DNA of 54,401 bases from Sulfurospirillaceae bacterium (GTDB taxonomy: Bacteria > Campylobacterota > Campylobacteria > Campylobacterales > Sulfurospirillaceae): contig JAQUWL010000014.1 in assembly GCA_028692875.1 (NCBI GenBank), positions 1 through 54,401 on the forward strand, read 5' to 3'. Shown piece by piece: positions 3,539 through 7,482 of the stretch (positions are counted from its first letter, which is position 1; each line of letters opens with the position of its first letter). The notes under the pieces were generated by a model. It was given only the letters and a program-made list of their open reading frames with translations. It made no database searches and had not been told where the DNA came from. Position numbers and translations under genes: made by a program.

Positions 3539-4429
3539 ATGAAACACCACTCAACACTCAAAGTAGCACTTGTGCAACAAGCCATCGGAAAAAACAAAAA
3601 AGATACACTCAAAAAAACGACACAGATGATTGAAAAGGCTTCAAACCAAGGTGCACAGCTCGTTGTTCTGCAAGAGCTTCATCAAGATAGATACTTTTGC
3701 ATCAATGAAAATACGGCAAATTTTGACCTAGCATCGGACTTTGAAGAGGATGTAAAATTTTGGTCACATGTAGCCAAAGAACATAAGGTTGTTCTTGTAA
3801 CATCTCTTTTTGAAAAGCGTTCGGCTGGACTTTATCACAACACCGCCGTTGTCTTTGAAAAAGATGGCTCAGTCGCTGGCAAATACCGCAAAATGCACAT
3901 CCCTGACGACCCAGGGTTTTACGAGAAATTTTACTTTACTCCGGGAGATTTGGGTTATGAGCCCATCTCCACAAGTGTTGGAAAGCTCGGTCTGCTCGTT
4001 TGCTGGGATCAGTGGTATCCTGAAGCTGCACGTTTGATGGCACTCAAGGGTGCTGAAATGCTTATCTATCCTACTGCAATCGGATGGTTTGATGAAGACG
4101 CAGAAGATGAAAAAAAACGTCAATGTGATGCGTGGGAGACGGTGCAACGAGGTCATGCCATAGCAAATGGTTTACCCGTCATTAGCGTCAATCGTGTCGG
4201 AAAAGAGATGGATGACTTTGGGCATTTGGACGGCATTCGCTTTTGGGGCAACTCTTTTGTTGCGGGACCTCAAGGGGAAATCATAGTGCGAGCAAGTCAC
4301 GACAAAGAGGAGATTTTGCTCGTTGACGTTGACCTAAAACGATGTGAAGACGTCAGACGCATCTGGCCATTTTTACGAGATAGACGCATCGAAACCTACA
4401 AGGGGCTGACAAAAAGATTTATTGATTGA
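3539..4429 (+). CDS. aguB: N-carbamoylputrescine amidase (nitrilase superfamily)
   Basis: A predicted cytosolic C-N hydrolase that converts N-carbamoylputrescine to putrescine, CO2 and ammonia, the last step from agmatine to putrescine. The 296 residues carry the nitrilase triad: Glu in LQELHQDRY (about residue 46), Lys in YRKMHIPDD (about 119) and Cys155 in LLVCWDQWYPEAAR. The HQDRYFC stretch and CWDQWYPE segment fit the AguB branch better than beta-ureidopropionase. The length is typical. The expected partner, agmatine deiminase, is not in the window. GGAG of the ribosome site lies inside the end of the preceding gene. Confidence 0.9.
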   Translation: MKHHSTLKVALVQQAIGKNKKDTLKKTTQMIEKASNQGAQLVVLQELHQDRYFCINENTANFDLASDFEEDVKFWSHVAKEHKVVLVTSLFEKRSAGLYHNTAVVFEKDGSVAGKYRKMHIPDDPGFYEKFYFTPGDLGYEPISTSVGKLGLLVCWDQWYPEAARLMALKGAEMLIYPTAIGWFDEDAEDEKKRQCDAWETVQRGHAIANGLPVISVNRVGKEMDDFGHLDGIRFWGNSFVAGPQGEIIVRASHDKEEILLVDVDLKRCEDVRRIWPFLRDRRIETYKGLTKRFID

Positions 4430-4461
4430 TTTTTCTTACATGTAAAAAATAAAATTGCTCG

Positions 4462-4496
4462 AAAGTAACTTACTTTTGCGAATTTACTCGTATTAT
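4462..4496 (+). promoter_or_regulatory. Putative promoter and operator of the RusA/toxin-antitoxin operon
   Basis: A perfect palindrome AAAGTAACTTACTTT (4462-4476) is followed by TATTAT (4491-4496), a plausible -10 box 11 bases before the ATG at 4508. The palindrome would overlap the -35 zone, a common arrangement for autoregulated toxin-antitoxin operons. This is inference from position and symmetry only. Confidence 0.4.
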
Positions 4497-4507
4497 ATTT
4501 AAGATGA

Positions 4508-5371
4508 ATGACGATAGAAGAAAATGATGAAATTGAAAAGCATGGTTATGATTTAGGCAATAATCCAAACCATGGAGGATGGAAACAAAAATTCAATTTT
4601 CCACCAGTTTCGTATTCAAATCAATCAGAGTTAAGACAAGAATTCAAAATTAAATTACAATTAAGCATTTCTACAAATTATATTTACACACAACAAGTTC
4701 AACTTACAATTACTTTATATCTAAATGAAGAAAAAATGCTAAACACACCAGAATATGGTGATTTAGACAACTATGCTAAATCTATTTGTGATGCAATTAA
4801 AGGTAAAAATGGATTAATTATTGATGATTGCCAGATTCAAAGGCTTGATATATCTTGGATAGATATCCCAGATAATAAATCATATTTTGAAATTGAAATC
4901 CAATCAACTCCCGATGAGTATTGTTCTAGAGAATTGTCATTGTACGAAATGCCCAATAACAAGTACTACCCTATTCCAAATAAATATTGGAATAACAGTG
5001 TCTTCATTGAAAAGAATGAAGAAGAAATATTTTTGGCTCTCGTTCATTTTGTCTATTCAACAAAACTATCCAAAGACATCCAGCACAATGCTCGAAAAAA
5101 AGGAAAATCACAGACTGAATCATACTATGATACAAAACTATTACATCCTATTGTTTTAGGCTACCATAAAACTAGAATTATTGATTCAGGATTTAATATT
5201 GTCAAAAAAAATATTTGGCGGAGCAAACTTGAAAATTGGTTGTCCTCTGCTACTGATAGCCATATCAAACAAAAAATTATTAAAATACTAGATATATTAA
5301 AAAAAATAGTAATTTTTCAATATATTAGCTATAATTCTAATAGATTAAATCTAAAGGATATAAAATGCTAA
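4508..5371 (+). CDS. RusA-like endonuclease domain fused to an unknown C-terminal domain
   Basis: The first half (about residues 25-140 of 287) matches the RusA Holliday-junction resolvase fold: GDLDNYAKSICDAIKG followed by LIIDDCQIQRL keeps the family's spaced acidic residues (D-x-D-N, D, DD). RusA proteins are usually about 120-150 residues, so the last 140 or so residues are extra. They are polar and probably helical, and I do not recognise them. The gene is more A+T-rich than its neighbours and has no strong ribosome site; 4508 is the first possible start because TGA is just upstream in frame. Its end overlaps the antitoxin start (ATGCTAA), so all three genes are likely one operon. Role in recombination, defence or addiction is unknown. 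Confidence 0.72.
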   Translation: MTIEENDEIEKHGYDLGNNPNHGGWKQKFNFPPVSYSNQSELRQEFKIKLQLSISTNYIYTQQVQLTITLYLNEEKMLNTPEYGDLDNYAKSICDAIKGKNGLIIDDCQIQRLDISWIDIPDNKSYFEIEIQSTPDEYCSRELSLYEMPNNKYYPIPNKYWNNSVFIEKNEEEIFLALVHFVYSTKLSKDIQHNARKKGKSQTESYYDTKLLHPIVLGYHKTRIIDSGFNIVKKNIWRSKLENWLSSATDSHIKQKIIKILDILKKIVIFQYISYNSNRLNLKDIKC

Positions 5372-5613
5372 CATATGGTGTAACAGATATTCAAAATAAG
5401 CCTTCATTGATGAAAGCGATGGATATTGCCGAAATCGTAGATAGAAGAGCCCATGCGACTTTGGGATATTTTATCTCTTCAAAATACGAAAGTTATATAA
5501 AACCCTTACTCGAAAAAATCGACAGGGATGAGAAAATGAATAAACTCCATAGACTTAAAAGTCATCAAGATTTAGCATTTGTTGAAATAGGAGTTGATGA
5601 TGGCATTAAGTAG
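5365..5613 (+). CDS. Putative antitoxin of a MazF-type toxin-antitoxin pair
   Basis: An 82-residue protein that overlaps the RusA-like gene by 7 bp and the toxin gene by 14 bp. It has a good ribosome site (AAAGGA, 6 bases upstream). The N-terminal half (VTDIQNKPSLMKAMDIAEIV, then LGYFISSKYESYI) resembles the Phd/YefM way of meeting DNA: a short helix region followed by a strand and a Y-E-containing segment. The C-terminal part is charged and probably disordered, suitable for binding the toxin. The call rests mainly on the gene's position before a clear MazF-family toxin. Confidence 0.68.
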   Translation: MLTYGVTDIQNKPSLMKAMDIAEIVDRRAHATLGYFISSKYESYIKPLLEKIDRDEKMNKLHRLKSHQDLAFVEIGVDDGIK

Positions 5614-5935
5614 AGGCGATATCGTCATCGTCAATCTTAACCCAAAAAAAGGAGATGAAGTTGGGAAAATCAGACCAGCGGTTATTGTCTCGGGGGATGA
5701 TGAAAATGCGATTTTGGATACGATTATTCTTATGCCACTTTCTACGGACTTGATAAACGATATGCTCCCTTATCGCATGAGAATCACAAAAAGAGATAAG
5801 CTTAGAGAGGATTCTGACATCCTAATCAATCAAATTCGTACACTTTCCAAACAAAGAATTGGTAATAAAATTGCTCAATTGAGCGATGAAGAGTATGAAC
5901 TTCTTTTTCAGTCCCTTTGCAAGAACTTTAAATAA
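5600..5935 (+). CDS. MazF/PemK-family mRNA interferase toxin
   Basis: A 111-residue endoribonuclease toxin. The N-terminus SRGDIVIVNLNPKKGDEVGKIRPAVIVS is recognisable as the MazF/PemK barrel: the GDI[VI] strand, NLNP loop, GxExGKxRPAVIVS with the conserved Arg. Downstream PLSTD and DSDILINQIRTLSK also fit the family. I chose the ATG at 5600 because AGGAG lies 6 bases upstream; 5597 is also possible. It overlaps the antitoxin gene out of frame, so their translation is coupled. Members of this family cut single-stranded RNA at short sequences that vary between members and cannot be read from sequence alone. Confidence 0.9.
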   Translation: MALSRGDIVIVNLNPKKGDEVGKIRPAVIVSGDDENAILDTIILMPLSTDLINDMLPYRMRITKRDKLREDSDILINQIRTLSKQRIGNKIAQLSDEEYELLFQSLCKNFK

Positions 5936-5941
5936 ACAAAC

Positions 5942-6517
5942 CTATTTTTCGTAAGTTTTAAAGTACCACATCAGTGCAAACATCAAGCCTGAAGTCGTAG
6001 CGATGCCCTCATCAAACATAAAAGCCAAAGCATCTTCTTTCTTAAGATAGATAACCTCGATGGCTTCGTTGTCTATGCCACCGCCTTCGCTAACTTGCAT
6101 AGAGTCGTCAAGCACGGCAAAATAAAGAGTTTGACAACCTCCAGCAAAACCAACAGAAGTATAAAAAGAGGATATTTTTTCGATTTTATTCAAGGGCACA
6201 TCATAGCCCGTCTCTTCTAGTATCTCCTCTTTGGCAATTTCGATGAGGCTTTTGTTTTTATCGACAAGCCCTGCACAAAGCTCATAAGTAAAACCATCTT
6301 TATTTTTAAGATAAATGGAAGGGCGAAACTGCTTTACAAACACAAAACAATCACGCATCTGATGATACAAAAGTATAGCGACACTGTCGTGAGTATCTAC
6401 CAAATCCCATCTTTTTTCTATACTATTTTGAACATAAAACATACTCTTTGGCTTAATGTATTTAGAATTCAAACACTCTTTTATCTTGATGATTTTTATC
6501 TTGCCATCTATTGCCAT
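5942..6517 (-). CDS. NUDIX hydrolase, ADP-/UDP-sugar diphosphatase-like
   Basis: A predicted cytosolic hydrolase of nucleoside-diphosphate sugars, 191 residues from the ATG at 6517 (an in-frame TTG 15 bases earlier lacks a spaced ribosome site). The Nudix box reads GLVDKNKS...AKEEILEETGY: the catalytic EExG portion is intact, but the first conserved Glu is Lys and the usual Arg is Glu. From memory this pattern also occurs in NUDT14-like enzymes of Campylobacter. The stretch SFYTSVGFAGGCQTLYFA after the box is typical of ADP-ribose/UDP-glucose diphosphatases. It follows corA closely; exact substrate unknown. Confidence 0.85.
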   Translation of the reverse strand: MAIDGKIKIIKIKECLNSKYIKPKSMFYVQNSIEKRWDLVDTHDSVAILLYHQMRDCFVFVKQFRPSIYLKNKDGFTYELCAGLVDKNKSLIEIAKEEILEETGYDVPLNKIEKISSFYTSVGFAGGCQTLYFAVLDDSMQVSEGGGIDNEAIEVIYLKKEDALAFMFDEGIATTSGLMFALMWYFKTYEK

Positions 6518-6522
6518 AAAAC

Positions 6523-7482
6523 TTAAATCCAACCCTTCTTTTTAAATATAGCTATCGGCGTTATAGCTGAAAGCATCATTAAGCCTATTGAAAAAATATA
6601 GCCATATTTCCAATGAAGCTCTGGGAAAAAGTCAAAATTCATACCATAAACACTTGCTATAAGAGTTGGTGGCAAGAAAATAACATTTACGATAGTAAAG
6701 ATTTTTATGACTTTGTTTTGCTCAATATTCAACATGCCCACGAATATATTTTGAAGATAGTCCAAACGCTCAAAATTAAACTGCGTATAGTCTATCAACG
6801 ACTTAATATCCTTAAGCATTATAAGAATATCAGCACGCAAAGATACATCATATTTGTTGGATTTTAAAAAAGAGGTCAAAATCCTCTGTTTATCCGTCAA
6901 GTTTTCTCGGATGTTCATATTTAAATCTTCAAATGAAGAGATTTTCTCCAAGATATCCTCATCGTCAGTTGTGTAATCTGTAAAGACGTGTTTTCTAAGT
7001 TTTGTGATATCTTTTGAAAGTTTTTCGATAACATCCGCATCGGCATCTATCCTTATATCCAAAAGCTGTGAAAAGATATAGTATCCATTTTTAAACTCTC
7101 TAGGGGCATAGTAAAAGCGTTTACTAAACTCTTCAAACGCACGAAGCTCTTTATATCGGATTGATATCAGCAAATTGCCTTGCAAGATAAATGAAACGGT
7201 TTCATTGTGTGGATTTTCATCATTTACAATCAAAAAGTAGCTGTTAATCTCTATCTTTTTGTCTTCCTCCCAATAACGTGAAGATATCTCAATCTCCTCA
7301 CTCTCTTGCTTTGTAGGAAAGTCTATAGCAAAAGTTTTTTCAACAAAAATTATCTCTTCTTGTGTTGGCAAAAACATATCCAACCAAACAACCCTGCTCT
7401 TTTTGTCCTCGTTGTCTATTAGCTGACTCAAATCCGTGATAATATCTAGCTTGTTTCCATTTTTTATAAAACACTTTATCAT
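6523..7482 (-). CDS. corA: CorA family Mg2+/Co2+ channel
   Basis: An inner-membrane divalent cation channel of 319 residues, the normal length. The large N-terminal cytosolic domain is rich in charged helices. The C-terminus has the family signature YGMNF just after the first membrane helix (VIKIFTIVNVIFLPPTLIAS), then a short periplasmic loop and a second helix (YIFSIGLMMLSAITPIAIF) ending in a basic tail KKKGWI. Pentamers of this family import Mg2+. It ends 5 bp before the Nudix gene, so the two are probably co-transcribed. There is no strong ribosome site before the ATG. Confidence 0.95.
   Translation of the reverse strand: MIKCFIKNGNKLDIITDLSQLIDNEDKKSRVVWLDMFLPTQEEIIFVEKTFAIDFPTKQESEEIEISSRYWEEDKKIEINSYFLIVNDENPHNETVSFILQGNLLISIRYKELRAFEEFSKRFYYAPREFKNGYYIFSQLLDIRIDADADVIEKLSKDITKLRKHVFTDYTTDDEDILEKISSFEDLNMNIRENLTDKQRILTSFLKSNKYDVSLRADILIMLKDIKSLIDYTQFNFERLDYLQNIFVGMLNIEQNKVIKIFTIVNVIFLPPTLIASVYGMNFDFFPELHWKYGYIFSIGLMMLSAITPIAIFKKKGWI

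Follow-up and report, generated by a model that had tools for sequence, protein, structure and literature searches.

Background

RusA resolvases are phage recombination enzymes, and a RusA gene next to phage methylases and a terminase is the usual setting for a phage resolvase. A search of the literature, covering open-licence papers only, retrieved no RusA-type defence system.

Here, we analysed a locus of a Sulfurospirillaceae bacterium (assembly GCA_028692875.1, genome size 1.94 Mb) in which a RusA-family nuclease gene precedes an antitoxin gene and a MazF toxin gene. It lies in a stretch of 54,401 bp (contig JAQUWL010000014.1, positions 1 to 54,401), hereafter called the window. We established the gene content of the locus, its position in a chromosomal hotspot, the presence of a conserved promoter sequence separate for mazEF, the foreign composition of the nuclease gene and the conservation of its C-terminal domain. 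Our preferred reading, in which we have moderate confidence, is that the nuclease is laterally acquired cargo directed against mobile genetic elements and stands beside an independent mazEF pair, i.e. two modules in one hotspot.

Results and discussion

Organization of the locus

The features of the locus are collected in Table 1.

Table 1 Position of the genes and sequence features of the nuclease-mazEF locus in the window
Feature	Position	Strand	Size and remarks
RusA-family nuclease gene	4508..5371	+	287 aa; Pfam RusA, structure match, C-terminal conservation
Parts of the nuclease			RusA core, residues ~23-131; conserved C-terminal domain, ~132-240; helical tail; last 19 codons, mazEF leader
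Antitoxin gene	5365..5613	+	82 aa; adjoins MazF of this type
MazF/PemK-type toxin gene	5600..5935	+	111 aa; ATG within antitoxin gene; PemK_toxin match
mazEF promoter and leader	about 5313..5364	+	TATAAT-type -10, imperfect palindrome TAGATTAAATCTA, AAGGAT ribosome-binding site; inside nuclease ORF
Palindrome AAAGTAACTTACTTT	4462..4476		Upstream of nuclease; possible operator
aguB-like carbon-nitrogen hydrolase gene	3539..4429	+	Left wall of hotspot; abuts NUDIX gene where slot is empty
NUDIX-type hydrolase gene	5942..6532	-	Right wall of hotspot; named by eye; CorA-like gene next
Palindrome TTACATGTAA	4436..4445		Directly after aguB; repeated genome-wide, also at cargo edges in relatives
Copies of TTACATGTAA in the window	4436, 18919, 23078, 24955, 32192, 48606		10 bp each

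Two palindromes of the locus were surveyed for further copies. AAAGTAACTTACTTT has a single exact copy in the window, looser matches occurring at chance level; it was considered as a special operator and set aside on account of this one copy, its significance being unproven. The perfect 10-bp palindrome TTACATGTAA is present six times in the window against 0.11 expected and 265 times in the genome. Across most of the family it reaches 400 to about 1,500 copies per genome, with few in one genus, and its reversed control does not exceed 10. By analogy, this density and patchy loss resemble those of a DNA uptake sequence; the literature search that was made found no paper on such a motif.

A RusA core followed by a conserved C-terminal domain

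The nuclease matched the Pfam RusA family (PF05866) over residues 42-131 (E-value 2e-9; score 38.6 bits, curated cut-off 22.8), and a sequence search of the PDB gave no match to it. Its AlphaFold model matched E. coli RusA (1q8r) with a Z score of 12.6 and a deviation of 2.1 Å over 105 residues, and the match to solved structures was confined to residues about 22-137. Residues D85, D87, K91 and D106 reproduce, at a constant offset of 15, the catalytic spacing of E. coli RusA, whose catalytic residues we take to be D70, D72, K76 and D91; the corresponding alignment columns are nearly invariant. The profile score above the curated cut-off, the predicted fold and the spacing of the acidic residues and lysine all argue for membership of the RusA family.

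The C-terminal part aligns in ten family members belonging to the Pseudomonadota, the Bacteroidota, the Thermodesulfobacteriota and the window's own order. In this alignment, the mean top-residue fraction is 0.38 for residues 132-240 versus 0.51 for residues 23-131, and residues 241-268 (0.22) and 269-287 (0.19) are without conservation. His220 is invariant, Arg223, Gly199, Pro155 and Glu147 are mostly kept, and the domain holds conserved EMP..YYP and FHKTR regions. The predicted models have a pLDDT of 70.5 for the whole nuclease and 67.0 for the C-terminal domain alone. Fold searches with the whole protein returned only RusA, matching the core, and those with the C-terminal domain alone gave a best E-value of 1.8; with models of such low confidence, the absent match is no proof of a new fold.

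Among the window's 41 ORFs of more than 150 aa (mean G+C 37.3 %, standard deviation 3.3), the nuclease gene has the lowest G+C content, 27.9 %. Low G+C would be expected of a recent arrival, and lateral acquisition of a gene of foreign composition is our best reading of its origin.

A first-pass annotation, made from the DNA letters alone, had anticipated several of these features. The RusA motif that it saw in the N-terminal half and the base use that it found unlike that of the neighbours were both borne out. The extension of about 140 residues that it left unrecognised turned out to be conserved over ten relatives, which speaks against the unconserved region that it had named as a refuting outcome. 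The structure prediction that it proposed for this extension yielded a model of a conserved region and no credible fold match.

The aguB-NUDIX gap is a hotspot

Nine genomes of the family have an empty slot, the gap between aguB and the NUDIX gene measuring 2-126 bp. This gap is a hotspot, and the window carries a 1.5-kb insertion in it. Septu-like PDC-M62 pairs occupy the slot in nine relatives, as called by PADLOC (G060, G022 and G034) or recognized by sequence likeness (G002, G030, G026, G024, G033 and G031, the G031 copy being split by an insertion). Other cargo of the slot comprises AbiEi/AbiEii accompanied by a TonB-like operon in G019, a GHKL protein plus a DrmMII-type methylase in G028 and, as judged by eye, a small toxin-antitoxin-like pair in G010 and an acyltransferase-like gene in G036; G016 and G035 carry single genes without assigned role. 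Among the slots, PADLOC covered those of G060, G022, G019, G028, G016 and G035 and the HNH gene of G034.

The PDC-M62, AbiE and methylase cargo of relatives places the nuclease locus in a defence hotspot. Against a defence reading, some occupied slots carry cargo other than known defence, and no model of PADLOC-DB 2.0.0 matches any of the three proteins.

As a side observation, G060 has, next to its Septu-like cargo, a degraded second copy of the aguB 3' end (L065, reverse complement, 5358-5480). Both edges of this cargo bear TTACATGTAA, which, like the aguB remnant, is a hint at the mode of cargo gain.

Relatives of the nuclease in defence and phage settings

No copy of the nuclease was detected in the 59 other near relatives. 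In a sample of 399 genomes from the order, the only finds besides the window gene were two divergent tandem copies in G392; a solo copy occurs in G534, which belongs to the family of G392 and falls outside the count of that sample. Strict peptide patterns, which undercount, gave at least four relatives in 84,980 genomes, and four distant matches were found in 72,556 plasmids.

Several of these relatives stand among defence genes. On the X. citri plasmid pCuR, one lies directly between a complete Septu and a complete Gabija system. In a Bacteroidetes MAG (L087, 2211-7537), genes for DruA, a kinase-ATPase of the CARF6 class, a CARF6 protein and a RusA-like protein follow one another in overlapping order, the RusA-like gene being last. 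In G392 (L090, 7452-11211), the two tandem divergent RusA-like genes are located behind a ZorA/ZorB-like pair, an arrangement that is possibly a Zorya-like variant with RusA effectors. Together with the cargo of the hotspot, this proximity to Septu, Gabija, ZorAB-like and CARF genes lends support to a putative defence role. Other relatives are found behind tyrosine-recombinase modules on Paraburkholderia and P. aeruginosa plasmids, and in prophages of Rhodobacterales. Two of the Rhodobacterales prophage copies (L083 near 4836, and L086) have an in-frame stop in the RusA-like gene, and the L082 copy is intact.

The main reason for caution about a defence role comes from the tree, in which the window gene groups with those of the Paraburkholderia plasmid, of Syntrophobacterales and of two prophages (99/99), the defence-adjacent members falling outside. 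The setting of this closest clade is prophages or the vicinity of tyrosine recombinases, not known defence islands. The nuclease may therefore be a prophage-derived RusA relic or moron, i.e. an ordinary Holliday-junction resolvase that reached the hotspot by chance and has no defence role. The prophages of the closest clade contain portal, integrase, methylase and terminase-like genes; the RusA fold and the PHROG RusA resolvase families, which match eight of the ten family members, point the same way. However, the ORF is intact with its catalytic spacing kept, the insertion has no other phage gene, the C-terminal domain is kept across large distances, none of 50,697 phage records gave a match and several relatives lie among defence genes. 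Weighing both sides, we regard this alternative, itself tentative, as nearly as likely as the defence cargo.

mazEF is a separate module with its own promoter sequence

The toxin matched the Pfam PemK_toxin family (1.3e-25, 90.2 bits against a cut-off of 23.1). The antitoxin matched no family of Pfam, NCBIfam or the PDB at the thresholds used, its PDB sequence matches being at chance level, and resembles Phd/YefM by eye only. Most of the closest mazF loci encode a homologous antitoxin directly 5' of the toxin. The toxin domain and this conserved adjacent antitoxin are consistent with a MazEF/PemIK pair. Of 120 genomes of the order, the toxin was detected in 59 and the antitoxin in 39, and DNA matches to mazEF were found on Aliarcobacter/Arcobacter plasmids.

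The most informative comparison is with G060, another genus of the same family, where aguB, mazE, mazF, NUDIX and CorA genes are neighbours as in the window and an ATPase with an HNH nuclease (PDC-M62A/B for PADLOC, Septu-like) takes the place of RusA. DNA similarity between both loci restarts at position 5313, within the nuclease ORF, and 50 of the 52 bp from there to the mazE start are identical. The G060 counterpart of 5313-5364 is an intergenic mazE leader with its TATAAT -10, imperfect palindrome and ribosome-binding site; the TATAAT is also kept in most other mazE leaders. Since this leader is intergenic in G060 and conserved between the two loci, the final 19 nuclease codons are the mazEF leader read through.

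The ORF coordinates confirm the stop-start overlaps of the first-pass annotation, i.e. 7 bp between nuclease and antitoxin and 14 bp between antitoxin and MazF. The shorter overlap probably arose by accident on insertion, through the chance position of the mazE ATG. As the mazEF promoter lies inside the nuclease ORF, the overlap is no sign of an evolved operon. The same annotation had placed all genes behind one palindrome-bearing promoter, which the separate promoter sequence of mazEF contradicts. Across the genomes searched, its three-gene unit recurred nowhere outside the window, an outcome that the annotation itself had named as refuting. The nuclease is next to an older mazEF pair that travels without it. 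Four-fold sites are alike between the window and G060 in 34 of 59 cases for mazEF versus 84 of 214 for the flanks (Fisher p 0.017), so mazEF may have a more recent history of exchange than the flanking genes.

Could mazEF be a general companion guarding the defence cargo upstream, i.e. the nuclease here, the Septu-like system in G060 and type I-B cas genes elsewhere? This would be compatible with the preferred reading, and we consider it rather doubtful. In its favour, mazEF separates cas3 from cas4 in the type I-B operons of G003 and G085 and cas4 from cas1 in G056, and it is located behind the PDC-M62 pair in G060 and beside helicase and T5orf172 genes in G077. The association is only partial, as other copies neighbour HipA, a DUF4158 protein (Tn3-like transposase, by eye), efflux genes, transposases, gltX, and gyrA-type/topoisomerase and lepA-type genes. 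Copies within type I-B cas operons were seen at L071 6260-6830, L075 about 4180-4735 and L080 6010-6583, the cas genes of L075 and L080 being assigned from their similarity to the scanned genes of L071.

A co-expressed three-gene unit, in which mazEF guards or senses the nuclease, is very improbable and was rejected as an operon: the genes do share a strand, both overlaps and a single slot, but a conserved promoter sequence proper to mazEF lies within the nuclease ORF, and mazEF comes after the Septu-like system in G060 and, common as it is, was found beside this nuclease in no relative searched.

Proposed function

For the preferred reading, that of acquired cargo against mobile elements beside an independent mazEF, we infer a defence function, a nuclease substrate and a role for mazEF as follows. 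The mazEF module, common to G060, would consist of a mazE-like antitoxin and an mRNA-cutting MazF toxin under their own, autoregulated-looking promoter. The nuclease would have arrived or joined just 5' of it, such that its reading frame came to end in the mazEF leader. Its RusA core may cut branched DNA of invaders, i.e. phage replication or recombination intermediates, and its C-terminal domain may provide recognition, oligomerisation, activation or control. Acting separately, mazEF would cleave mRNA upon loss of the antitoxin, resulting in addiction or infection-triggered growth arrest and keeping the slot filled. Such a stabilising role for the slot, non-specific to the nuclease, is possible.

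More speculatively, RusA nucleases that share this C-terminal domain, with its FHKTR region and invariant His, might constitute an unrecognised anti-phage family that cuts branched phage DNA, either as solo cargo or as effector of ZorAB-like or CARF operons; this generalization is tentative. If this RusA branch truly recurs among defence genes, a phage tool would have been recruited against phages, and, if true, a branched-DNA-cutting nuclease would join the known immune effectors. Within this bacterial family, the hotspot itself offers a simple site to screen for new defence genes. The locus also illustrates that overlapping genes may mimic an operon after insertion beside a toxin-antitoxin module.

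Comparison with known systems

Zorya associates ZorAB with effectors, and G392 has its tandem RusA-like genes behind such a pair, with a short and weak ZorA match (5e-15), whereas the window locus is without ZorA or ZorB. Septu (PtuAB) and the Septu-like PDC-M62 are related to the locus by position, PDC-M62 occupying the same slot in nine relatives and once with the same mazEF, but they combine an AAA ATPase with an HNH nuclease and have no RusA domain. The window pair shares with MazEF/PemIK the PemK/MazF toxin, the antitoxin-first order, the overlapping genes and the promoter palindrome, and differs by an antitoxin outside the Pfam and NCBIfam antitoxin families at the thresholds used. Finally, the nuclease has in common with E. 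coli RusA (PF05866) the core fold and the D-x-D...K...D spacing, and is distinguished from it by about 140 extra C-terminal residues with their EMP..YYP and FHKTR region.
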